This document shows, piece after piece, positions 5,962-43,538 of a stretch of DNA of 46,667 nucleotides (positions are counted from its first letter, which is position 1; each line of letters begins with the position of its first letter). The notes beneath the pieces are model-generated. The model searched no databases. It had not been told where the DNA came from and saw nothing but the letters and a program-made list of their open reading frames with translations. This stretch comes from Mesorhizobium sp. Lineage in GTDB: Bacteria; Pseudomonadota; Alphaproteobacteria; Rhizobiales; Rhizobiaceae. The position numbers were made by a program, and so were the translations under genes. The DNA lies in assembly GCA_004020545.1 (NCBI GenBank), contig SAQE01000051.1:1-46667 (forward strand), given 5' to 3'.

Positions 5962-6918
5962 ATGAACATCCACAAGAATGCCCGTTTGACGCCGTTGCGT
6001 CGAGAGGAGATGGCGCTCGCCGTTGTTGAAGGCGGCCTTTCCAAAGCCGCTGCGGCGCGGATCTATGGTGTGACGGCGAAGGTCGTGGCGCGCTGGGTCG
6101 AGCGTTTCCGGTGCGAAGGACGCGCCGGCATGGCGGATCGTTCGTCGCGACCGAAAAGCAGCCCGGCACAGACCCCGGCAACGGTTGCCGACGAGATCGC
6201 GACGCTGCGCCGCCGGCGGCTGACGGGCCAGCACATCGCCAGGCAGACGGGGGTGTCGGCGGCGACGGTAAGCCGCGTGCTCAAGCGGGCCGGTCTTTCG
6301 CGGCTGAAGGACATCGAACCAGCCCAGCCGGTGCGCCGCTACGAGCGCGAGAAGCCCGGTGAGATGATCCACATCGACATCAAGAAACTCGGGCGCTTCG
6401 AGCGCGTCGGCCACCGCATCACCGGCGATCGCGTCGGCCAGTCCAACAGCCGCGGCGTCGGCTGGGAGTTCGTCCATGTCTGCATCGACGACGCCTCGCG
6501 CGTCGCTTTCTCGCAGGTCTTGCCGGACGAGAGGAAGGAGAGCGCTATCGCCTTCCTGAGGGCGGCGGTCGCCTACTACGCCAGCTTGGGCATCGTGATC
6601 GAGCGCGTCATGACCGACAATGGGTCCTGCTACAGGTCGAAAGCCTTCGCCAAGGCTTGCCGCAAACTTGGCCTCAAGCACATCCGCACCAAACCCTACA
6701 CGCCCAAGACCAATGGCAAGGCCGAGCGCTTCATCCAGACTGCGCTCAGGGAATGGGCTTACCCTGTCGCATATCCGACTTCCGATCATCGCGCCGCCGA
6801 GCTGCCTGTCTGGCTTCATCGCTACAATTGGCACAGGCCACACGGCAGCCTAAAGTCGCAAACGCCAATCAGCAGACTCGGCCTGTCCGGGGACAACCTG
6901 TTGAGGCTCCACAGCTAG
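5962..6918 (+). CDS. IS481-family transposase
   Basis: 318-residue DDE transposase. An N-terminal helix-turn-helix pair (about residues 12-110; LSKAAAARIYGVTAKVVARW, then TGVSAATVSRVLKRAG) is followed by the rve integrase core. The catalytic triad is visible as D139 (HIDIKK), D219 (MTDNGS) and E255 (GKAERF), with 35 residues between the second Asp and the Glu as expected. The C-terminal YNWHRPHGSL motif is typical. Its TAG stop (6916-6918) is not part of the element: it comes from the duplicated CTAG target next to the right inverted repeat. The gene looks intact. Confidence 0.93.
   Translation: MNIHKNARLTPLRREEMALAVVEGGLSKAAAARIYGVTAKVVARWVERFRCEGRAGMADRSSRPKSSPAQTPATVADEIATLRRRRLTGQHIARQTGVSAATVSRVLKRAGLSRLKDIEPAQPVRRYEREKPGEMIHIDIKKLGRFERVGHRITGDRVGQSNSRGVGWEFVHVCIDDASRVAFSQVLPDERKESAIAFLRAAVAYYASLGIVIERVMTDNGSCYRSKAFAKACRKLGLKHIRTKPYTPKTNGKAERFIQTALREWAYPVAYPTSDHRAAELPVWLHRYNWHRPHGSLKSQTPISRLGLSGDNLLRLHS
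6891..6913 (-). repeat. Right terminal inverted repeat of the IS481 element
   Basis: Complement starts TGTG and ends AGGTTGTCC, pairing with 5879-5901. Confidence 0.8.
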
Positions 6919-10988: not shown

Positions 10989-11153
10989 TCAGGTCACACC
11001 AGGCTCCGCACGAGCAGCCGGCTCCGGCTCCCGCGCTACCTCTTCCTTTTCCGCATCGGCCTTGCGCTTCAGGCACTCCTCGAAATCATGGTCGCGGCCA
11101 CCGCAATAGGAGCAGCATTTGGCAGGCTTATTGGGGTGGAGCATCGAGGCCAT
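10989..11153 (-). CDS. 54-residue zinc-knuckle-type small protein
   Basis: A short frame starting MASMLHPNKPAKCC and ending EPEPAARAEPGVT. It holds CSYCGGRDHDFEEC, an exact C-x2-C-x4-H-x4-C pattern, the CCHC zinc knuckle known from nucleic-acid-binding proteins. The C-terminal half is charged and Ala/Glu/Pro-rich. A second in-frame ATG at 11144 could be the real start; neither has a strong ribosome site. The fit to the CCHC spacing and the natural composition support it as a gene. Function unknown; binding of zinc and RNA or DNA would be inference from the motif alone. Confidence 0.55.
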   Translation of the reverse strand: MASMLHPNKPAKCCSYCGGRDHDFEECLKRKADAEKEEVAREPEPAARAEPGVT

Positions 11154-11246
11154 TCCCAAGAATGCACAAAAAGCTTTCCGGTTGCAGCAATGCGTGAAGC
11201 CGCTGCAACCGCCCGTTCAACCCCATGCCCCACTGTCAAAATCAAA

Positions 11247-11274
11247 GGAGCTCGCCGCTTGCGCGGCGGGCTCC
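11247..11274 (-). terminator. Rho-independent terminator of the SPW gene
   Basis: A 12-bp stem (GGAGCCCGCCGC / GCGGCGAGCTCC, one G-T pair) with a GCAA loop. Read on the minus strand it is followed by TTTGATTTT. It lies just past the stop of the SPW gene. Confidence 0.7.
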
Positions 11275-11288
11275 CGCTCAGTCACCGC

Positions 11289-11642
11289 TCACGCATGCGC
11301 GTGGGGATGACGGAAGTCCCAGACGGCATAGGCCGATGCCGCGATCACCAGCACGCCGAGAACGACATGCGTGGCCATCACATTCGTGTCTGCCGCAAAG
11401 CCCAGCAGCCAGGGTGACACGATTAGCCAGAGCCCGAGGGCCATATTTACCCATTCTTCCCATTCGGCGAACACCGAAAGCGTCGCGAGCGCCAGAGCGC
11501 CGAGCGCAACGCCGACAATCCAGGCGTTCCACGCGGGCACCATTACCGCGGTGAATCCGATGACCCAAGGTGAGATGAACAGGCAGATCGCGAGGACCAG
11601 AGTGATCCAGTCCATGCTCTTTCTTGCTTCCATCATTGCCAT
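11289..11642 (-). CDS. SPW-repeat membrane protein
   Basis: 117 residues, four membrane helices in two repeats, each with the SPW signature: ISPWVIGF near residue 25 and IVSPWLLGF near residue 80, plus WNAWIVGVALG and WEEWVNMALG. The start at 11642 is chosen because GGAGG lies 6-7 nt upstream. SPW proteins are found in proteobacteria and actinobacteria, often next to stress or desiccation genes; no biochemical role is established. The C-terminus is His-rich (RHPHAHA). A terminator follows at once. Confidence 0.85.
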   Translation of the reverse strand: MAMMEARKSMDWITLVLAICLFISPWVIGFTAVMVPAWNAWIVGVALGALALATLSVFAEWEEWVNMALGLWLIVSPWLLGFAADTNVMATHVVLGVLVIAASAYAVWDFRHPHAHA

Positions 11643-34158: not shown

Positions 34159-35532
34159 TCAATCGAAACCGACCCAGATGTAGCCGTCCACCTCGCGGCA
34201 CGGAATGAGATGCAGCGGAGCCCGGTTCTTTGAAATATCGCCGAGAATCTCCATGCCGGCCGAAGTTCCGTCCTCATTGAGCGCCTCGCACCACTTTACG
34301 ATTTCGCCTGTATCTAGATCGAATCCGCTGTGATGCCAGCGACACACCAGCGTGCCGTTCTCGTCGAAAGTGCTCGCCTGTCCTGCGCGGCTGTTGATCC
34401 GCGAGGTACTCTCGAAGAATGGCAACTTCAAATGCGGGCAGGCATTGTTAAAGGCATAGACGCGCCCGCCCCTGCGCAAAATCACGGCATAGAGCGCTTG
34501 GAACTCGATGACTTTGTAGTCGCCATCCTTCAGTTCGCCCGTCGCGACCGTCCGGTGCCACGTCTTGCCGCCCAGCTGCATAGTCTCGCGCGCGCCTTTT
34601 TCGTTCAGCCGGCGCTCGGCTTCAACCTTCAGCTTCTTTATCTCGTACAGTGTAATTCGGTCGGAGGTACCACGCAAACGCACCCGAATGAAATCGGATA
34701 TTTCAACCTCATCCTTGACCCGTTCATAGAGCGTCTCGGAAATCAGGAGGCGGGTTCCGGCCTCCTTGTTGGCTGTTTCGACGCGGCTCGCCACATTGAC
34801 CGCATCGCCGATAGCCGTCAGGCGCTCGTTGCCGGGCGATCCGACCGAACCGATCACCGCTTCGCCCAGATGCAAACCGACGCGAATATCGAAGTCGATG
34901 CCGTACATCGAGGCGAAAAACGGCTTCAGCCGATCGACCGTGGCAAGGGTCTGCAGGGCCGCATTGACCGCGCGCACCGGTGCATCGTCTTGGCCCTCTA
35001 CGCCAAATATCGCCATAAGCCCGTCGCCGACGAACTTGTCGATGTAGCCGTCGTTGAGCTCGATGACTTCGGCGACCTGAGTGAAATAGCGATTGAGCAG
35101 ATACATGACATCGTAAGGCGTCAACGTTTCAGAGAAGTGGGTGAACCCGGCTACGTCGCTGAAGAAAATGACGACCGACTTCAGCTCGCCCGCACTGGTG
35201 GACCTGTGCGGTAGCAACTGACTGGTCATTCGCAGGTCGGTCTCGTCGAGTACGAGCCGGCGAAAGGTGATGTCGGAGGCAGGTCTGAGCTGGCATGCCA
35301 GGCGTACGTTGTTGCCAAGCCCCAACCGCTCTACGAGCGTGCGCTCCGGCGCGGTGCGCTCCGGGCAGCCGTCTGCACCGTCGAGAATCCAGATCCGGCA
35401 GGTCGAGCACTTGGCCTTGCCGCCGCAAGCGCAGGCGATCGGGACATCTGCCCGGCGGGCGGCTTCAAGGACAGATTCCCCGAGCGCCGATTTGATCAAT
35501 ATGTCGTCGGGCAGCGATAGCAACGTAGGCAT
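34159..35532 (-). CDS. Ferredoxin - class III nucleotide cyclase - Rieske fusion protein
   Basis: 457 residues with three domains. Residues 1-95: a [2Fe-2S] ferredoxin with Cys36-x5-Cys42-x2-Cys45 and Cys80 (CGGKAKCSTCR ... RLACQL). Residues 117-300: a class III adenylate/guanylate cyclase with metal ligands Asp126 (FFSDVAGF) and Asp170 (KFVGDG), adenine-binding Lys166 and Asp243 (IGDAVN), Asn246 and Arg250; all key residues suggest active cAMP synthesis. Residues 320-457: a Rieske domain with Cys365-x-His367 and Cys397-x2-His400 (CPHLKL ... CRWHHSG). No membrane helix. Ferredoxin-cyclase fusions are known in Rhizobiales; the Rieske end is less usual. It is probably a redox- or oxygen-sensitive cAMP synthase. 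Single gene. Confidence 0.92.
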   Translation of the reverse strand: MPTLLSLPDDILIKSALGESVLEAARRADVPIACACGGKAKCSTCRIWILDGADGCPERTAPERTLVERLGLGNNVRLACQLRPASDITFRRLVLDETDLRMTSQLLPHRSTSAGELKSVVIFFSDVAGFTHFSETLTPYDVMYLLNRYFTQVAEVIELNDGYIDKFVGDGLMAIFGVEGQDDAPVRAVNAALQTLATVDRLKPFFASMYGIDFDIRVGLHLGEAVIGSVGSPGNERLTAIGDAVNVASRVETANKEAGTRLLISETLYERVKDEVEISDFIRVRLRGTSDRITLYEIKKLKVEAERRLNEKGARETMQLGGKTWHRTVATGELKDGDYKVIEFQALYAVILRRGGRVYAFNNACPHLKLPFFESTSRINSRAGQASTFDENGTLVCRWHHSGFDLDTGEIVKWCEALNEDGTSAGMEILGDISKNRAPLHLIPCREVDGYIWVGFD

Positions 35533-35641: not shown

Positions 35642-35990
35642 TTGGATGCCATCGTCGAGTCCGATAGTCCGCCTGAAAGCCGCATTCCGCATCGGCACCA
35701 AGATCGACTTCGCGATCGAGCCGTCCTGCTGCTGCTCGCCACCTCGGGCATTCGCAACAGCGAGCTACGCGCATTCAGCTCCAGGATATCGACTGGCGAG
35801 CTGGCGAGGTTTTTGTCCGGCGCACCAAGGGCAAGCGTGACCGGATGGCCCCGCTCTTTGAGGAGACCGCCGCCGCGCTCGCCGATTACATCCTGCGCGC
35901 TCGACCGAAGGTGGATAGTCCGTATCTGTTTCCTGTCCTTCACTCCCCCGTGGGGCCGTTCAAGTGCGCGTCGCCTGTTTCGAGGATGTG
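35642..35990 (+). pseudogene. Frameshifted tyrosine recombinase (phage integrase) fragment
   Basis: Part of the catalytic domain of an XerC/D-like recombinase. One frame reads DRAVLLLLATSGIRNSELRA, containing the catalytic Arg of the GIR/GLR-xSEL motif. After a shift near 35775 another frame continues LQDIDWRAGEVFVRRTKGKR, with the catalytic Lys in the beta-hairpin, then PLFEETAAALADYILRARPK. The N-terminal SAM-like domain and the C-terminal HxLRH and Tyr regions are missing. It is dead. It marks a past integration at the edge of the peptide-secretion operon. Confidence 0.75.
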
Positions 35991-36091
35991 CTGGGCATCA
36001 TGCACGACACGCTAAACGCCGCCACAGAGCGCCCGTGAGCGGGCGGATAACGCGAAAATCATCGACGTCCGAGCTGCGCAATGAAGCACGA

Positions 36092-36586
36092 TCACAGTTG
36101 AGGCCAGGCAGCCGGATTTGGGGGCTGCTGAAACAGATAACTATAAGCGAGCCAAAAGGTCAGATAGTCCAGCGGCGGTTCCGAAGGTTCGTCGGGCTGA
36201 TCGCGCAAATCAGAATTTGGGCTGCCCCGCGCTACATTTGGAGTGTGGTGAATGAAGTTCCCCTCTCCGGCAACTTGATAGCAGAAGGCCAGGTACTCGC
36301 GGGTGAAGAGAATGAAGGTATGCCAGAATTGATCGACGTCGCCGCGCATGCCGATCGGCTCATCGAAGACCGCACAAATGGCAAGGTAACGCTTGAGTTC
36401 GCGCTCTTGCATTTCTGCGATGTCTGCGGCGAGATCATGGTCTCGCATGTATCGTTCCCGGATCTTCGTCATGTCGAAGATTTCGGCATTTTCGATGATC
36501 GAAGCGATCGTTTCCCTCGATCGGCCGGGGAGCAATCTCAAATGAATCCCTGGTACGACCTCGATGCTTTGGGGCTCATCAGTCAT
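36092..36586 (-). CDS. GRDP-like (glycine-rich-domain-like) protein
   Basis: 164 residues. The central motif DVDQFWHTFILFTREYLAFC followed by FIHHTPN is characteristic of the GRDP/DUF1399-like family seen in plants, fungi and some bacteria; its His residues (W-H-T and I-H-H) suggest metal binding. An N-terminal helical part (IASIIENAEIFDMTKIRERY, DHDLAADIAEMQERELKRYL) precedes it. It overlaps the hydroxylase gene by 8 bp and closes the operon. In this context it may help modify or mature the exported peptide, but no function is proven for the bacterial members. Confidence 0.72.
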   Translation of the reverse strand: MTDEPQSIEVVPGIHLRLLPGRSRETIASIIENAEIFDMTKIRERYMRDHDLAADIAEMQERELKRYLAICAVFDEPIGMRGDVDQFWHTFILFTREYLAFCYQVAGEGNFIHHTPNVARGSPNSDLRDQPDEPSEPPLDYLTFWLAYSYLFQQPPNPAAWPQL

Positions 36587-37238
36587 CGGCCCATCGCCTG
36601 ATAAGGTTTGCCACGGATTTGGAAATTAGGTCCAACTCCCGACTCGAGCCGTTCTGTTGGATCAAGGCTTGTCGCGCCATGTCTAGGTCGAGCAGAATTT
36701 CGCGTTCGGCCGTATCTCGAATCAGGCTGCGCACCCAGGTAGTAGAGGCAAGGCGCATGCCTGAACGGACCGGATCGACCCTGTGAATAGCGGTAGAGGG
36801 GTATAGCACGGCATCACCGGCTGGCAATTTCACTGCTTCGGTGCCGCTAGCGGTTTCGATGACGAGCTCTCCCCCTTCATAGGCATCGGGGTCACTCAGA
36901 AACAACGTCAGCGAGAGATCAGTTCGATATCCCAATATCACAGGGTCATCGATATGGTCCCCGTAGGTCATGCCAGCCGTGTAGCGGCTGAAACGAGGCG
37001 GCACCAAAGCCTTCGGGCGAGCCGCCATAACAAAGGCCGGATGCTGCAACAAAGCCTCAGTAACGATCTTGCGCAAAGACTGCAGTTGGGGATCGTCTGA
37101 CGAAATCTGCTCGTTGCGTTTGACCTGTCGTGCTTGCCATCCGGCGGTTAGCCGGCCGTCCTGCCAATCGCACGAATCCAATGTTCTGGTAACCACTCCC
37201 AACGATCGCTCATCGATCACTTTACTGAGTTTGAACAT
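36579..37238 (-). CDS. PKHD-type Fe(II)/2-oxoglutarate hydroxylase (PiuC/YbiX-like)
   Basis: 219 residues. Iron ligands His95 and Asp97 (YGDHIDDPV) and His152 (AIHRVDPV), and 2-oxoglutarate-binding Arg162 (SGMRLAST). RFSRYTAGMTYGDHID is the typical PKHD lead-in, and SLTLFLSDPDAYEGGELVIE follows. PiuC-like proteins are often tied to siderophore uptake, yet no TonB receptor is here. It overlaps the ABC exporter by 17 bp and the GRDP-like gene by 8 bp, so it is co-translated with a peptide-export system. Hydroxylation of the precursor peptide is the natural hypothesis. Confidence 0.87.
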   Translation of the reverse strand: MFKLSKVIDERSLGVVTRTLDSCDWQDGRLTAGWQARQVKRNEQISSDDPQLQSLRKIVTEALLQHPAFVMAARPKALVPPRFSRYTAGMTYGDHIDDPVILGYRTDLSLTLFLSDPDAYEGGELVIETASGTEAVKLPAGDAVLYPSTAIHRVDPVRSGMRLASTTWVRSLIRDTAEREILLDLDMARQALIQQNGSSRELDLISKSVANLIRRWADD

Positions 37239-39399
37239 TCTTTCTCCGAACAGAGCTTATGCGCCGTGGCTTCGGTGCAGCTAGGCGTGAGTGGTCATCG
37301 ACAGCCACACCAAGTGCAATGGCTCGCTCAGCCATGGCGATTGTCGATGGGCGGTGGGCAACGATGACCCGACTAACGTTGAGGCTCGCGACGGCGGCGT
37401 TGATCTTCACTTCATTGTCCTCGTCTAGGTCGCTGGTTGCTTCGTCCAAAAACAGAATGCGCGGCTTGCGATAAAGCGCTCTGGCGAGAACGACGCGCTG
37501 CTTTTGACCGCCGGACAAGGCGCTGCCCATGTCGCCGACCAACGAATCGTAGCCCATAGGCATCGCTCGTATCTCGTCAGCAATTGCGGACATTTGGGCG
37601 CATTCCTCAATCCAAGACTGATCGGCATCCGGTTCGAATGCAGCGATATTTTCCGCGATCGTGCCGGCAAAAAGCCGATCCTCTTGCAGTACAGTAGCCG
37701 TCAGTCGCCGATAGTTGGCGTAACCGAGAGCACGGATGTCTTGGCCATCCAACAGCACCTTGCCTTCGGTCGGGACAATTAGTCCTGCCATGATCTTAAG
37801 CAGCGTAGTCTTGCCGCATCCGGAAGGACCGGTGATTGCTACACACTCTCCGGGGACAATATTGAGGTCAACCCCGCGCAATACCTCTGGAAGACCTTCG
37901 CCATAGGCGAAACGAACCCCTGTTGCATTCAGATGGAGTGGACGATCGGAGTTTACCAACGTGGGCAAAGAATGACCGGCTGCGGCGTCTTCCTCAGGTG
38001 TCGTCAGGGCTATATCACCGATGCGCTCGCTGTGAAGGCTCAGCATCTTCAGCCGGATAGCGAGCCCTATAAGCTCGCCGACCCGGCCAACGAATTGATC
38101 CTTATAGGCGATAAAAGCGATCAGCATTCCGACCGTCATGTCACCGGCGATGACGGCGCGGGTGCCGAGCACGAGCATTACGATACCATCGATGCCGGCG
38201 AGCAAGCTGCCTATTGTACCGAACAAGAAGTTGAGTTTCTGGATCTGAAGATTGGCGTTGACGGCATCAATGAGAAGATTGAGCCAAGCGCCCCGCCGTC
38301 GCTCATGCATGTCGAGAGCTTTGACGCTGGCAACGCCGCGGATCGTCTCCATGAAGTGCGAATCTTCTTTCGCGCCTTGGACGATTGCCGCTTCATTGGC
38401 TGTCCGGTAGGGGGCGTAAGCTGCAATTCGGATGATCAGATGCAGTGTAAGCGTCACCACGGCGACAACAGTTAACCAGCCTCCATAAAGGAGCATCATG
38501 GCCAGCGCACCTATAGCCATGACGCCGTCGAGGATAGCGCCTACTAGATCGATAGTAAGTGCTGATTGGACTGCGCCAAGGGAACTGAAACGGGAAACCA
38601 CATCGCCTATGTGCCTCTTTTCGAAGTAGGAGAGCGGCAATCGTAGCAGATGATCATAAAGGGCTGTTGTCCATTGCACGTTGAGCCGCGTGCCCATGAT
38701 CAGTGTCGCCCAGGATCGCGCCAGGCCGATCATGGTCTGCAAGATCAGCAACGTTCCCAAGCAGATAGCCACCAGCGTCAGAAGTTCACGATCGGCGGCA
38801 ACGATAACCTGATCGAGGATCACCTGCGTGCCGATTGGAGACAAGATCGCGAACGCTTCAAGGCAGAGTGAAAGGAGGAGAATCTGACTGAGTGCCCGTT
38901 TTAGGCCGACCACGTTTCGAAATAGGTTGGTCAGTCGGATGCGTTCGATCTCGGTCTTCTTTTCGAATCCGCCCGTAGGCCAAGCCTCCAGAGCGACGCC
39001 AGAAAAGTAGTTTGAAATCTCATCGCGCGAAACGCATAGACGTCCGTGCGCCGGATCGTGAATGACCGCCCCGCGTGACGTCATTCGCTCTAGCACCACA
39101 TAGTGGCGCAGCTTCCAATGCAGCACGCAAGGTAACTTGAGATGGCCAAGTTCCTCCGACTCTATGCGTACCGCCCGTGTGGCCAAGGACAAACCCGTGG
39201 CAAAGCGCGCCAGATCGATCAGAGAGGTTCCGGTCACCGCTGCCGAAAAGCGGCGCCGCAGCACGCCAATGTCGATCCGGTGGCCGTGATAACTTGAAAT
39301 CATCGCTAGGCAGGCGATGCCGCATTCCGCAACCTCGGTCTGCAGAATCATTGGTAGGCGACGCCGGAATCCAAAGGACAATCGGGTTAACGTGCTCAT
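37222..39399 (-). CDS. Peptidase-containing ABC exporter (C39 peptidase, bacteriocin type)
   Basis: 725 residues from the ATG at 39399, which overlaps the HlyD stop as ATGA. An N-terminal C39 protease (QTEVAECGIACLAMI with Cys26; RHYVVL with His99; HDPAHG with Asp115) cuts leaders after Gly-Gly. A six-helix transport domain (about 160-440) and a nucleotide-binding domain follow: Walker A TGPSGCGKTT, signature LSGGQKQRVVLARAL, Walker B RILFLDEATSDLD. Together with the HlyD adaptor it would cleave and export the precursor encoded upstream. All catalytic residues are present, so it should be active. Confidence 0.95.
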   Translation of the reverse strand: MSTLTRLSFGFRRRLPMILQTEVAECGIACLAMISSYHGHRIDIGVLRRRFSAAVTGTSLIDLARFATGLSLATRAVRIESEELGHLKLPCVLHWKLRHYVVLERMTSRGAVIHDPAHGRLCVSRDEISNYFSGVALEAWPTGGFEKKTEIERIRLTNLFRNVVGLKRALSQILLLSLCLEAFAILSPIGTQVILDQVIVAADRELLTLVAICLGTLLILQTMIGLARSWATLIMGTRLNVQWTTALYDHLLRLPLSYFEKRHIGDVVSRFSSLGAVQSALTIDLVGAILDGVMAIGALAMMLLYGGWLTVVAVVTLTLHLIIRIAAYAPYRTANEAAIVQGAKEDSHFMETIRGVASVKALDMHERRRGAWLNLLIDAVNANLQIQKLNFLFGTIGSLLAGIDGIVMLVLGTRAVIAGDMTVGMLIAFIAYKDQFVGRVGELIGLAIRLKMLSLHSERIGDIALTTPEEDAAAGHSLPTLVNSDRPLHLNATGVRFAYGEGLPEVLRGVDLNIVPGECVAITGPSGCGKTTLLKIMAGLIVPTEGKVLLDGQDIRALGYANYRRLTATVLQEDRLFAGTIAENIAAFEPDADQSWIEECAQMSAIADEIRAMPMGYDSLVGDMGSALSGGQKQRVVLARALYRKPRILFLDEATSDLDEDNEVKINAAVASLNVSRVIVAHRPSTIAMAERAIALGVAVDDHSRLAAPKPRRISSVRRKNVQTQ

Positions 39400-40718
39400 T
39401 GCCACGTGCTTGTCGACTGGCTGGCGACACCTCCGCGCAAACTGTAAAGCGGCTCCAATATCCATTGATAGAGCGGCCGTGTGTCGAGAAGCAGCTCGGC
39501 TTCCACCTCCATGCCAGCTCGAAGCGGCTCGGCTTTGCCGTACGCCACGACATCTTGCACCTGTGGCTGAACCGTAATCTGATACAAGGGTGCCACGGGG
39601 TTGCTTTGACCACCCATGTCGGAGATGCCGTCGAGATCGCTCGGACGAAGAGGCGCACGAGAAATTCGCTTCACGATGCCTGGGTACTGGCCGAACTTCT
39701 GATACGGAAAAGCGGCATAACGTAAAAGGACATGCGTGCCCTCCCGAACAAAACCGATAGCGCGGCTCTGAGCCATTAGGTGAATCTCCATCTGGCCCTC
39801 TGTCGGTAGGATGGACAACAGCGGCGCGCCAGGGGCTATCATCTGGCCCGACTTGCCCAGGATTGCAGTAATCGTGCCGTCTCTCGGCGCAGTGACGTTG
39901 ATAGCGCGCCTCGCGGCTCCTTGCGCAAGTTGTTGGTCCATTGCGGCAGCGCGCTGACGCAGCTCGCCGATTACAATCGCCGCGTTTGCATCGAAGCCAT
40001 CGAGTTTGGAATGAACCTCCTCCAACCTTCCATCGAGTTGGACGCGCTGACGTTTCAACCCTTGTAGTTCCTGCCTGGTCTGCATGTAACTTTGCTGCCG
40101 GAATTCGAATTCCCGTTGGATCGTGATTCGCCTATTTACAAGTTGTTTATACTTGTCGGCTGATTCCTTGAGCACCGCTAAGTAATCGGCCGTATCTGCA
40201 ATTTGAGTGTCAATGCGTTCGATCTCTCGCTTAAGAATCCGCTCTTGCTCGTACAAGCCTTTCTTGTCGATACGATCAAGCTCGGCTCGCCGCGAAATTT
40301 CTTCCTGCAGTTCAGCTCGTTGTGTGCGAAGCTGACTTTCAACAATCGCTTCGGTTTCCCCTAGGTCCGTAACGCTGTCCAGGCCGATCGTGTATAATGA
40401 ATCCCCGCGACGGACGGCGACGCCTTCGGACACAGCGCTTTGAACAATTCGGCCAGCTTGTGGCGCGAAGACACGCGTAACGCCCGCGCTTGGAGCAACG
40501 GTGCCCGAGACGCGCACTCTGCGCGTATACTCTCCCAAGATTAAGACGCTGCCAATGAGAACCACGGCCACAACGGCCAATCCCGTGGCAGTCTGGACGG
40601 AAATAGGTTGAAGAAGTTGCGGCCTGCCAAGCCATGCGTCCCGGCGGGCGGCGAGTGCCTCTTTTCGAAAGAGAGAAACAGGTATTGGCGCTTCCGATCG
40701 AGATTCACCAATCAGCAT
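39396..40718 (-). CDS. HlyD-family type I secretion adaptor
   Basis: 440 residues. One N-terminal membrane helix (TGLAVVAVVLIGSVLILGEY, about 44-63), a lipoyl half (SGTVAPSAGVTRVFAPQAGR), a long coiled coil (about 120-260; KREIERIDTQIADTADYLAV, RQELQGLKRQRVQLDGRLEE), the second lipoyl half (VTAPRDGTITAI) and a beta-barrel end (LRAGMEVEAELLLDTRPLYQ). It overlaps both the CPBP gene and the exporter gene. It spans the periplasm and would dock to a TolC-like channel encoded elsewhere. Confidence 0.93.
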   Translation of the reverse strand: MLIGESRSEAPIPVSLFRKEALAARRDAWLGRPQLLQPISVQTATGLAVVAVVLIGSVLILGEYTRRVRVSGTVAPSAGVTRVFAPQAGRIVQSAVSEGVAVRRGDSLYTIGLDSVTDLGETEAIVESQLRTQRAELQEEISRRAELDRIDKKGLYEQERILKREIERIDTQIADTADYLAVLKESADKYKQLVNRRITIQREFEFRQQSYMQTRQELQGLKRQRVQLDGRLEEVHSKLDGFDANAAIVIGELRQRAAAMDQQLAQGAARRAINVTAPRDGTITAILGKSGQMIAPGAPLLSILPTEGQMEIHLMAQSRAIGFVREGTHVLLRYAAFPYQKFGQYPGIVKRISRAPLRPSDLDGISDMGGQSNPVAPLYQITVQPQVQDVVAYGKAEPLRAGMEVEAELLLDTRPLYQWILEPLYSLRGGVASQSTSTWQ

Positions 40719-41559
40719 GTTTTATCTGCCACGGGTGTTGGCGGGCAGCATGGCGCGCGAGATCAGCTTGAGTTGTCAGTGCGCTTTCCTCCTTCGCCGT
40801 CCTGCGCAGGAGATAGACGGCATAAATTAAGTTTGGCAGTTCGAAGATGAAGACACCGACAACCCCAATCACTATCAGGCTCCAACGGAACGGTACGAAT
40901 GGATCGGGAGGAGGAGCGGGCAGATAGTCTATTCCAAGTGCGGCAAAGGTAACGAAGTTCCAAACCCAGTGGTAGATGATCGCCGGAATGAGGGAACCGG
41001 TGCGTTGCGCAATAGAAACCAGGACTACGCCGAACAACAGGGTGTTGATGACCTGAAATAAGCCCACTCCAAAATAGCCCGATTCCAGAACGTTCGCCCA
41101 ATGAATAAAACCAAACAGCAGTGCGCTGAGCCATACCGCAGGCCATAGGTTTAATCGGCTGCGCAAGGCGCGATAGAGCACGCCGCGAAACATCAATTCC
41201 TCGGAAGCCGCCATGGGGAGCAGATTCAAGGCTAACCGTACGAGTTCGGCAGGTGACGCCGGCCCATACATGATTGCGTAGATCGCGAAGCCGACTATAT
41301 AAAGCGACGGAAACCACAAAAGAAGCCATCGCTTTGGTTCCGCTGGAAGGCGAAGTCCGATATCGCGCCAATCCCACGAATAGATGACCAGACTCAGGAA
41401 TCCGATATTGCTCAAATACGGCAGGAAGAACTTCGCAAATCCGAGAGAATAGTATTCGCGCGAGATCATATCGAAGAACTGCGCGCCCATGAGGGTGATT
41501 ATCCACCAAACTGCGAAACAGACGAAAGAGATCAGAAGCCGATTGTCAGGTAAGCGCAT
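40705..41559 (-). CDS. CPBP-family intramembrane metalloprotease (Abi/CaaX type)
   Basis: 284 residues from MRLPDNRLLI, with AAAGGA before the ATG at 41559 (the in-frame ATG at 41607 is rejected). About eight membrane helices carry the four CPBP motifs: SEELMFRGVL (Glu120, Glu121, Arg125), FGFIHW (His153) and IIYHWVWN (His197, Asn201). In Gram-positive bacteriocin loci such proteins give self-immunity (plantaricin and sakacin 23K types); others process prenylated proteins. Between precursor and exporter, an immunity role is the first hypothesis, and maturation of the peptide is the alternative. A potential attenuator hairpin lies in its leader. Confidence 0.88.
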   Translation of the reverse strand: MRLPDNRLLISFVCFAVWWIITLMGAQFFDMISREYYSLGFAKFFLPYLSNIGFLSLVIYSWDWRDIGLRLPAEPKRWLLLWFPSLYIVGFAIYAIMYGPASPAELVRLALNLLPMAASEELMFRGVLYRALRSRLNLWPAVWLSALLFGFIHWANVLESGYFGVGLFQVINTLLFGVVLVSIAQRTGSLIPAIIYHWVWNFVTFAALGIDYLPAPPPDPFVPFRWSLIVIGVVGVFIFELPNLIYAVYLLRRTAKEESALTTQADLARHAARQHPWQIKHADW

Positions 41560-41620
41560 GCACGTCCTTTCTGGCGAGGCACGAAACCGCATCGGGCCGT
41601 TAGTCAATCACAAGTTAACA

Positions 41621-41666
41621 GCACGCAAGCTTCACGCCATCGAAAAGGCGCAATAAGCTCGCGTGC
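41621..41666 (-). promoter_or_regulatory. Hairpin between the precursor and export genes, possible attenuator
   Basis: Outer 12-bp stem GCACGCGAGCTT / AAGCTTGCGTGC with one G-T pair, and an inner stem (CGCC/GGCG). On the minus strand it is followed by TGTTAACTTGT, without a strict T-run. It could cause partial termination or protect the precursor mRNA, so that more precursor than exporter is made. Confidence 0.55.
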
Positions 41667-41684
41667 CACGGATGGATTGATCCG

Positions 41685-42029
41685 CTATTTACTTCCGCCA
41701 CCAGGAGTACGCGTCCACGTGCTATCCTGATTGCTCAATCGCCCCATGTTTTTGGACAATGCACTAACAAGATCCTGCCATGTTGGATATGCAGCTTTGA
41801 CTTCATCCCAAATGCCCTTTGGGTGCGTCTTCTCATACCAGGCCTTGATTGACGCCTCCGTCAAGGCTGGTCCGAGCCGTTGGGAGTTGACTAGACGATC
41901 ACCCTTTGTGTCGCCTTGTCCATTATCGCTTCCTGCTGCTCCTCCACTTGGTCCGCCAGAACTTGCTCCACCGGTACAGCCTTCGCCACCAAAGACAGAC
42001 GCCATTTCCGTCACCGTCAATTCGCGCAT
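41685..42029 (-). CDS. Double-glycine leader precursor peptide (bacteriocin/microcin-like)
   Basis: 114 residues. The leader MRELTVTEMASVFGG has the C39 consensus: Leu at -12, Glu at -8, Met at -7, Val at -4 and Gly-Gly at -2/-1, so cleavage is expected after Gly15. The 99-residue mature chain opens EGCTGGASSGGPSGG (one Cys, a Gly/Ser linker) and continues with a folded-looking part (ALTEASIKAWYEKTHPKGIW, AAYPTWQDLVSALSKNMGRL), ending TPGGGSK. AGAGGAA precedes the ATG. It has no hit that I recognise among known microcins. It starts the operon that encodes its own exporter, adaptor and probable immunity protein. Confidence 0.85.
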   Translation of the reverse strand: MRELTVTEMASVFGGEGCTGGASSGGPSGGAAGSDNGQGDTKGDRLVNSQRLGPALTEASIKAWYEKTHPKGIWDEVKAAYPTWQDLVSALSKNMGRLSNQDSTWTRTPGGGSK

Positions 42030-42090: not shown

Positions 42091-42106
42091 ACAACTTATA
42101 AGTTGT
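42091..42106. promoter_or_regulatory. Perfect 16-bp palindrome upstream of the precursor gene
   Basis: ACAACTTATAAGTTGT reads the same on both strands. It lies about 60 bp before the precursor start, in an AT-rich region where the operon promoter should be, so it is a likely operator for a dimeric regulator. Confidence 0.6.
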
Positions 42107-42737: not shown

Positions 42738-43238
42738 CGGCTTCGGCGCTCGTGGCGTTCTTCGTGCGAACGTCCGCAATGGGGTCAATCATGTCGTTCA
42801 TCACACCCGTCGCCGACGACGGCAACGGGAAAAGAGCGGAATTTCGTTCCTCCCGTCGGAACGGGCAATGAGTGCTAGAGGCAGCCCCTCGCGCTAATGA
42901 GCAATCGGCTGTTGCCTTGCATTAGGCAAGCAGATCGCTGCAGCCGAGATCGTCAACCGCCAGCATGATGCGCTCGAGGTTGTTCCACCAGACCCGCGGA
43001 GGGATGTTGTTCATGGCCTGTGCCACGGGTCTTGTGATCAGCTACCAAGCGTCAGATTTTGACCACCAGGCAGCCCCCATTCCACGGGGCGCGGAAATGC
43101 CGGACACAATCCGGAAACAAGATTCAACAGTCGGGAAAAACTCGCGAAAAGAGCGGGTGGCATAAGCGGCACCGGAGCAGCCGAACGATTGCGGCGCGCG
43201 ACAAAAGACATCGATCTTTAAACCAAGGAATGCCGATT
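42738..43238. other. Gap with one possible tiny frame
   Basis: 500 bp without a convincing gene. A minus-strand frame at 42922-43014 (30 codons, MNNIPPRVWWNNLERIMLAV ... LLA) looks protein-like and may be the C-terminal relic of a larger gene, but it is too short to name. The last part (43180-43238) is the AT-richer leader of the His/Lys-rich gene. Confidence 0.4.
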
Positions 43239-43538
43239 ATGAAAAAGACCCTTCTCTCCGTTCTCGGCCTGGCCGTCGCGCTCGCTTTCGCGGTGCCGGC
43301 GCTCGGCACCACCGAGGCCAATGCCGCCGCGACGACCGCCGCGACGACCACGACCGCTGCTCCGGCCGCGGCCACCGAGAAGCCCGCCGTCAAGGTCGCG
43401 CATCACAAGAAGCACAAGAAGCATCGCCGCCATCATGCCGGGAAGCATCACGTGGCGAAGCACCACAAGCATCACGTCAAGAAGCACCACACCAAGAAGC
43501 GCACCCACAAGAAGGCCGTCAAGAAGAACGCCGCCTAA
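43239..43538 (+). CDS. Secreted His/Lys-rich protein
   Basis: 99 residues from MKKTLLSVLGLAV (43239), with AAGGA 9 nt upstream. Signal peptide to about residue 27 (ALGTTEANA). The mature part begins with Ala/Thr-rich sequence (AATTAATTTTAAPAAA) and then becomes a highly basic chain of His and Lys (HHKKHKKHRRHH, KHHVAKHHKHHVKKHH). Such His-rich segments can bind Zn, Ni or Cu or acidic polymers; similar short proteins are common in Rhizobiales without a proven role. A good terminator follows. Confidence 0.78.
   Translation: MKKTLLSVLGLAVALAFAVPALGTTEANAAATTAATTTTAAPAAATEKPAVKVAHHKKHKKHRRHHAGKHHVAKHHKHHVKKHHTKKRTHKKAVKKNAA

Follow-up and report, generated by a model that had tools for sequence, protein, structure and literature searches.

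A microcin S-ordered operon in Mesorhizobium that carries genes for a PKHD-type hydroxylase and a GRDP-like protein

Gene content and organization of the locus

The window analysed here, a 46,667-nucleotide stretch of Mesorhizobium sp. DNA (bases 1–46667 of contig 135, in a genome of 7.0 Mb and 188 contigs), carries six minus-strand genes that encode a double-glycine precursor peptide, a CPBP-family membrane protein, an HlyD-type adaptor, a C39 exporter, a PKHD-type hydroxylase and a GRDP-like protein. We tentatively read these genes, as a serious possibility and not as a settled assignment, as an imported class II microcin-type operon in which the CPBP protein would provide immunity and the PKHD enzyme would hydroxylate the peptide with the GRDP-like protein as helper. 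The genes, in the order of the strand, are:

41685–42029, minus strand: precursor peptide, 114 amino acids (aa), with one Cys and a net charge of +1
40705–41559, minus strand: CPBP (Rce1-like) membrane protein, 284 aa from an ATG start or 300 aa from a TTG start
39396–40718, minus strand: HlyD-type periplasmic adaptor (HlyD_3, PF13437, E = 6.4e-15)
37222–39399, minus strand: C39 peptidase-containing ATP-binding cassette (ABC) exporter (PCAT), 725 aa (Peptidase_C39, E = 6e-32, plus ABC)
36579–37238, minus strand: PKHD-type Fe(II)/2-oxoglutarate hydroxylase (2OG-FeII_Oxy_3, E = 2e-13, plus PKHD_C)
36092–36586, minus strand: GRDP-like protein, tail-less, 164 aa

The original prediction, made from the DNA letters, had placed six minus-strand genes here, five of them overlapping by 4–17 bp, and boundaries recomputed from the open reading frame (ORF) calls of the window confirm this: the last five genes overlap by 14 bp (CPBP/HlyD), 4 bp (HlyD/C39), 17 bp (C39/PKHD) and 8 bp (PKHD/GRDP). 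Together with the 125-bp gap between the precursor and CPBP genes, these overlaps are compatible with a single transcript of all six, and because their reading frames overlap by 17 and 8 bp, the PKHD and GRDP genes are tied to the exporter. Shine-Dalgarno-like stretches were seen by eye for the precursor (GAGGAAG), CPBP (AAGGA) and PKHD (GGAGA) genes.

A precursor and exporter in the order of microcin S

The locus has the features of a class II microcin system, namely a double-glycine precursor with a C39 exporter and HlyD in the same locus. When the window HlyD was used in a tblastn search, the matches listed included the microcin S plasmid pSYM1 along with plasmids resembling it, and on E. 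coli pSYM1 the genes run precursor, CAAX/CPBP protein, HlyD, C39 exporter (mcsS-mcsI-mcsA-mcsB). The first four genes of the window share this order, with the CPBP gene in the mcsI slot, which bears out the bacteriocin-type layout of the original prediction. In the report on microcin S, mcsS is the microcin itself and mcsI, of the CAAX/CPBP family, alone confers immunity (PMC3316575). By analogy of position with mcsI, it is plausible that the window CPBP protein is the immunity protein of the producer. It matches Rce1/CPBP (PF02517, E = 4.9e-20) and by eye contains EELMFR, FGFIHWAN and HWVWNF, which we take to be CPBP motifs; the catalytic Cys, His and Asp of the C39 exporter are likewise all present by eye. 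The nearest HlyD in the genus stands at 53%.

Two parts of the precursor matter for what follows:

41985–42029, minus strand: double-glycine leader MRELTVTEMASVFGG, 15 aa, read as the segment for C39 cleavage from the leader pattern and the microcin S alignment
41892–41984, minus strand: Gly-rich first 31 residues of the mature peptide (11 Gly), the putative hydroxylase substrate region

The leader MRELTVTEMASVFGG, which we take to be of the colicin V type, is identical to the microcin S leader at 8 of 16 positions, and its pattern (MREL..E...V.GG, as a regular expression) has one match among the window ORFs of at least 30 aa, the precursor itself. Scored by the codon usage of the other five genes, the precursor frame ranks top of six (+5.5; next −3.4). 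The predicted core behind the leader is 99 aa; a single-sequence AlphaFold model of the precursor has a predicted local distance difference test score (pLDDT) of 50, with helices at 6–12 and within 58–101. Against Pfam, the precursor reaches Bacteriocin_IIc with 13.9 bits (E = 0.055), below the cut-off of 27.1 bits.

In Pfam, NCBIfam and homologue searches the core showed no homology to a known toxin, and this, together with its glycine-rich low-complexity start and the two-component genes that adjoin exporter relatives at several loci, would fit a peptide that serves as a signal or surface factor and not as a toxin, with a CPBP protein that processes a membrane protein and confers no immunity. 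This explanation, to which we assign little probability, is opposed by the gene order shared with microcin S, where a CAAX/CPBP-family gene is proven to give immunity.

We compared the exporter with 24 other loci, some of them near-copies: plasmid records supplied 17, and HlyD searches of genomes the other 7. A candidate double-glycine precursor was recognized by leader pattern at 17 of these (near-copies again included), whereas PKHD and GRDP were found at none (E 0.05). CPBP-like proteins, identified by annotation and pattern, occur at two, both of microcin S type, and more may be overlooked because a phmmer search with the window CPBP failed to recover even those two. Genes near the other exporters vary (nucleotidyltransferase, hydrolase, aspartyl protease and others). 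In a 24-row exporter tree, the window C39 exporter pairs with that of locus L031 of the same genus (92/93), within a 14-row group (100/100) that excludes two McsB-type rows.

Two exporter loci carry further genes of note. The same-genus locus L031 (3044–7711) has two genes that look radical-SAM-like by eye, together with a His-x-Ser-repeat protein, neighbours that we take to resemble a His-Xaa-Ser system. At L079, one exporter sits between two double-glycine precursors (6092–6280 and 11055–11327) whose cores are very rich in Gly (Gly-Asn/Asp).

PKHD enzymes outside the receptor clade

The window PKHD scores 270 bits against NF003974, an Fe2+-dependent dioxygenase model with a cut-off of 143. 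Family members with solved structures are three PiuC sequences and Sbal_3634, which is presumably a Shewanella protein. We surveyed 55 other PKHD loci: 25 from the order (26 of 249 genomes match, own counted), 29 of those in the class (64 of 289 genomes match, own counted) and the best plasmid match, from Pantoea. Neighbours were scanned over ~1.5 kb, or 9 kb for Pantoea. The PKHD gene lies beside a receptor-like gene alone at 27 loci, beside a Gly-Glu-repeat protein alone at 13 (a repeat such as GGEGGEGG behind a hydrophobic stretch), beside both at 1 and beside neither at 14, two of which (L041 and L055) had been missed by the overlap rule and were set to Gly-Glu by hand. A C39-HlyD pair was found at none of the 55 within ~1.5 kb; L139 has an ABC-type ORF at the edge.

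In a 56-row tree of these enzymes, all 27 receptor-alone rows fall into one 34-row PiuC/CciO clade (99/94), and the window lies outside it. Of the 21 other rows outside this clade, 16 have a Gly-Glu neighbour (L043, L114, L117, L119 and L138 do not) as compared to 0 of 34 inside by the strict pattern, a difference (Fisher p = 7e-10) to be read with care because the rows share ancestry and the patterns were adjusted in the course of inspection. PKHD enzymes outside the receptor clade often accompany exported glycine-rich proteins. At least two types of protein make up their Gly-Glu partners, imelysins (PF09375; 2 of 7 scanned) and proteins that match neither Pfam nor NCBIfam. The window enzyme is sister to that of Pantoea (99/86), whose divergent neighbour has a signal-like start and then Glu-Gly-Gly-Glu-His/Tyr repeats, and in a smaller 27-row tree it falls inside the Gly-Glu group (100/100). 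No TonB-dependent receptor lies beside the window PKHD gene; its neighbours are the exporter and the GRDP-like gene. Because rows outside the receptor clade mostly neighbour secreted Gly/Glu-rich proteins, hydroxylation of the exported peptide is the best-supported candidate role for the window enzyme.

PKHD genes outside the receptor clade stand beside GGEGGEGG-type proteins with a signal-like start at L037–L042, L055, L062, L112, L113, L115, L116, L118, L120, L121 and L126. This repeat is possibly a hydroxylated metal-binding motif, and the pairing of PKHD with secreted Gly-Glu-repeat proteins is directly testable by mass spectrometry across many alphaproteobacteria.

The GRDP-like protein and the standing of the tail genes

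The GRDP-like protein of the window has no Pfam or NCBIfam match at 0.1, and PF07173 GRDP-like is touched by 2 of the 12 members of its alignment (best E 0.00095). Conserved residues are D85, W88, H89, Y98, C102, G107, H113 and H114. Relatives occur in 13 of 249 genomes of the order (own included, one probably false), in 12 of 374 of the family (own included) and in 3 of 35 of the genus of genome G883. In 16 of 28 GRDP rows, Gly and Cys together make up at least 23% of the final 40 residues, a Gly/Cys-rich tail that the window copy lacks. The nearest relatives, 43–51% identical over part of their length, come from three genomes of one genus (L069/L084, L142/L152, L143/L153), and by eye no exporter operon adjoins them; nor was a PKHD found at any of 37 GRDP loci, several being the same place. 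A fold search with a GRDP model built on four sequences gave no match and shows nothing either way.

Elsewhere, GRDP genes have other company. On an Agrobacterium plasmid (L024:7914–12277), two copies, with a Cys/Gly-rich tail, stand beside a glycosyltransferase and an ABC transporter; on an R. gallicum plasmid (L025:7833–9818), a short copy stands beside two pieces homologous to the Agrobacterium glycosyltransferase; and at L034 (2152–5016), a broken copy lies near an ABC transporter 30% related to the Agrobacterium one. A glycosylated peptide system is possible at these three loci.

Are the tail genes part of the system at all? They usually occur without the exporter, a finding that the original prediction had named as counting against it (0 of 24 exporter loci, 0 of 55 PKHD loci). 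The four-gene microcin operon could be complete in itself, with PKHD and GRDP as passengers that serve iron handling or an unrelated purpose through read-through: neither is found at the other exporter loci, the nearest GRDP relatives likewise have no adjoining exporter operon, and CciT-CciO connects the PKHD family with iron uptake, CciO of Caulobacter being reported as a cytoplasmic dioxygenase that the TonB receptor CciT strictly requires (PMC12004947). However, the tail frames overlap by 17 and 8 bp, no TonB receptor adjoins, PKHD is found in 1 of 146 genomes of the genus, the own genome, where it is the sole copy, and the two imelysins found in that genome lack the Gly-Glu motif. We judge the passenger explanation somewhat unlikely.

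Origin of the unit and neighbouring features

With the own genome counted in each case, HlyD of this type is found in 3 of the 146 genus genomes (E 1e-20) and in 7 of the 385 from the class (1e-30). The operon has a G+C content of 55.4%, as compared to 63.7% for bases 1–34000, and two further features lie at its ends:

35773–36015, plus strand: tyrosine-recombinase remnant adjoining the operon end (PF00589, 27.9 bits; cut-off 27.1)
42091–42106, no strand: perfect 16-bp palindrome ACAACTTATAAGTTGT, a possible operator, 61 bp before the precursor ATG

A second piece by the recombinase remnant (35654–35810) has no family match. The rarity of HlyD and PKHD in the genus, the lower G+C and the recombinase remnant together suggest that the operon was probably imported as a unit. 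The shuffle control for the palindrome tested that very word, picked after sight, and gives no measure of the rarity of palindromes generally.

Outside the operon, an ORF at 43059–43538 (plus strand) has a signal-like start inside it and closes with a His/Lys-rich stretch (HHKKHKKHRRHH...), with no Pfam match at 0.001, and a protein encoded at 34159–35532 (minus strand) unites 2Fe-2S ferredoxin, guanylate cyclase and Rieske domains, a fusion that we judge unusual.

Proposed mechanism

From family knowledge, the C39 exporter would cleave the precursor after its Gly-Gly and would work with HlyD and a TolC-type channel, whose gene lies elsewhere, to export the 99-residue peptide; that the peptide is exported is likely. 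By its position, the CPBP protein would shield the producer in the way that McsI does in the microcin S system. Hydroxylation by the PKHD enzyme would come before export and would most probably fall in the glycine-rich first third of the peptide, a step suggested by the neighbourhood of related enzymes; the exported glycine-rich product that goes with the window PKHD would be the precursor itself. The GRDP-like protein would be a helper, and our guess is that it acts in trans on the glycine-rich segment, perhaps by presenting it, because in many relatives the domain bears such a segment as its own tail.

Several observations weigh against this mechanism. Firstly, the precursor core has no convincing homologue (best E 0.5) and, unlike the usual PKHD partners, no GGEGG-type repeat, and no window ORF passed a Gly-Glu density criterion, which also missed L038. 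Secondly, the Gly-Glu rows do not form one clade in the 56-row tree (2 changes), the window-Pantoea pair and L039 are placed closer to the receptor clade at modest support values (90/84 and 91/49), the motif patterns were in part drawn up with the loci already in view, related rows are not independent, two loci were assigned by hand, and looser patterns also match ORFs at two receptor-clade loci, L054 and L061, matches that we take to be wrong-frame reads. Thirdly, the exporter is distantly related to McsB, G+C also dips to 56% elsewhere in the window (13–14 kb and 45–46 kb), and the complete six-gene unit was seen solely at this locus. Lastly, the substrate of CciO and PiuC relatives is described as still open in a 2025 paper (PMC12004947). 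The original prediction of a modified peptide of a new class in rhizobia survives in one half: a modifying role for PKHD is indirectly favoured by tree neighbours that are mostly linked to secreted Gly/Glu-rich proteins and not to TonB receptors, and a new class is not borne out by a unit seen once.

If the PKHD enzyme does act on the exported peptide, it would bring new chemistry to class II microcins, which are little modified apart from the siderophore-carrying class IIb by one account (PMC10333792), and would make a substrate class nameable for PKHD enzymes. Among the matches listed from the open-access literature, there was no report of a hydroxylated class II microcin, of a microcin locus with a PKHD enzyme or of the pairing of PKHD with Gly-Glu proteins, which is not proof. 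The broader proposal, that non-PiuC PKHD enzymes hydroxylate glycine-rich acidic secreted sequences and that one was recruited here with a tail-less GRDP to make a hydroxylated class II microcin, we consider unlikely as it stands.

Comparison with known systems

The window enzyme belongs to the same PKHD family and model as PiuC, YbiX and CciO; those pair with TonB receptors, whereas the window enzyme lies outside their clade and has none adjacent. As for PF07173 GRDP-like, the window protein and its bacterial relatives have the D..WH, Y, C and HH pattern in common, but the window protein has neither the Gly/Cys-rich tail nor a Pfam match itself.

Cupins and 2-oxoglutarate oxygenases have a common double-stranded beta-helix fold, and PKHD, or PKHD with GRDP, might accordingly act in producer immunity, as McaB does for Mcc17978, and not as a modifier of the product. 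In the Acinetobacter Mcc17978 locus mcaABCD, a cupin-like mcaB lies between the microcin and HlyD genes and alone protects (PMC10333792); because McaB suffices, a beta-helix protein as immunity factor is conceivable. We nevertheless hold PKHD immunity to be improbable: the place of mcaB is taken in the window by the CPBP gene. The two loci are alike in having a microcin, an accessory gene, HlyD and a SunT-type exporter, with a cupin-like accessory protein in mcaABCD; they differ in that its accessory gene is a tested immunity gene before HlyD, a distinction drawn from description and not from compared sequences. The claim of the original prediction that the tail genes are foreign to microcin loci holds for PKHD and GRDP at the 24 exporter loci and is to be taken with caution in view of this cupin-like gene. 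In the same source, Mcc17978 enters via PiuA, or Fiu in E. coli (PMC10333792), which connects microcins to the receptor partner of PiuC; the window enzyme is outside the receptor clade.

Microcin S remains the closest match in layout. Beyond gene order, the leaders are similar and alone align with weight; the precursor core is not homologous to that of McsS, the CPBP proteins are 23% identical over 149 aa (E = 4e-4), and the window operon adds PKHD and GRDP, neither of which was found in microcin S-type loci. Because its exporter is of an alphaproteobacterial lineage, we suggest that the window operon works like microcin S without being its close kin.

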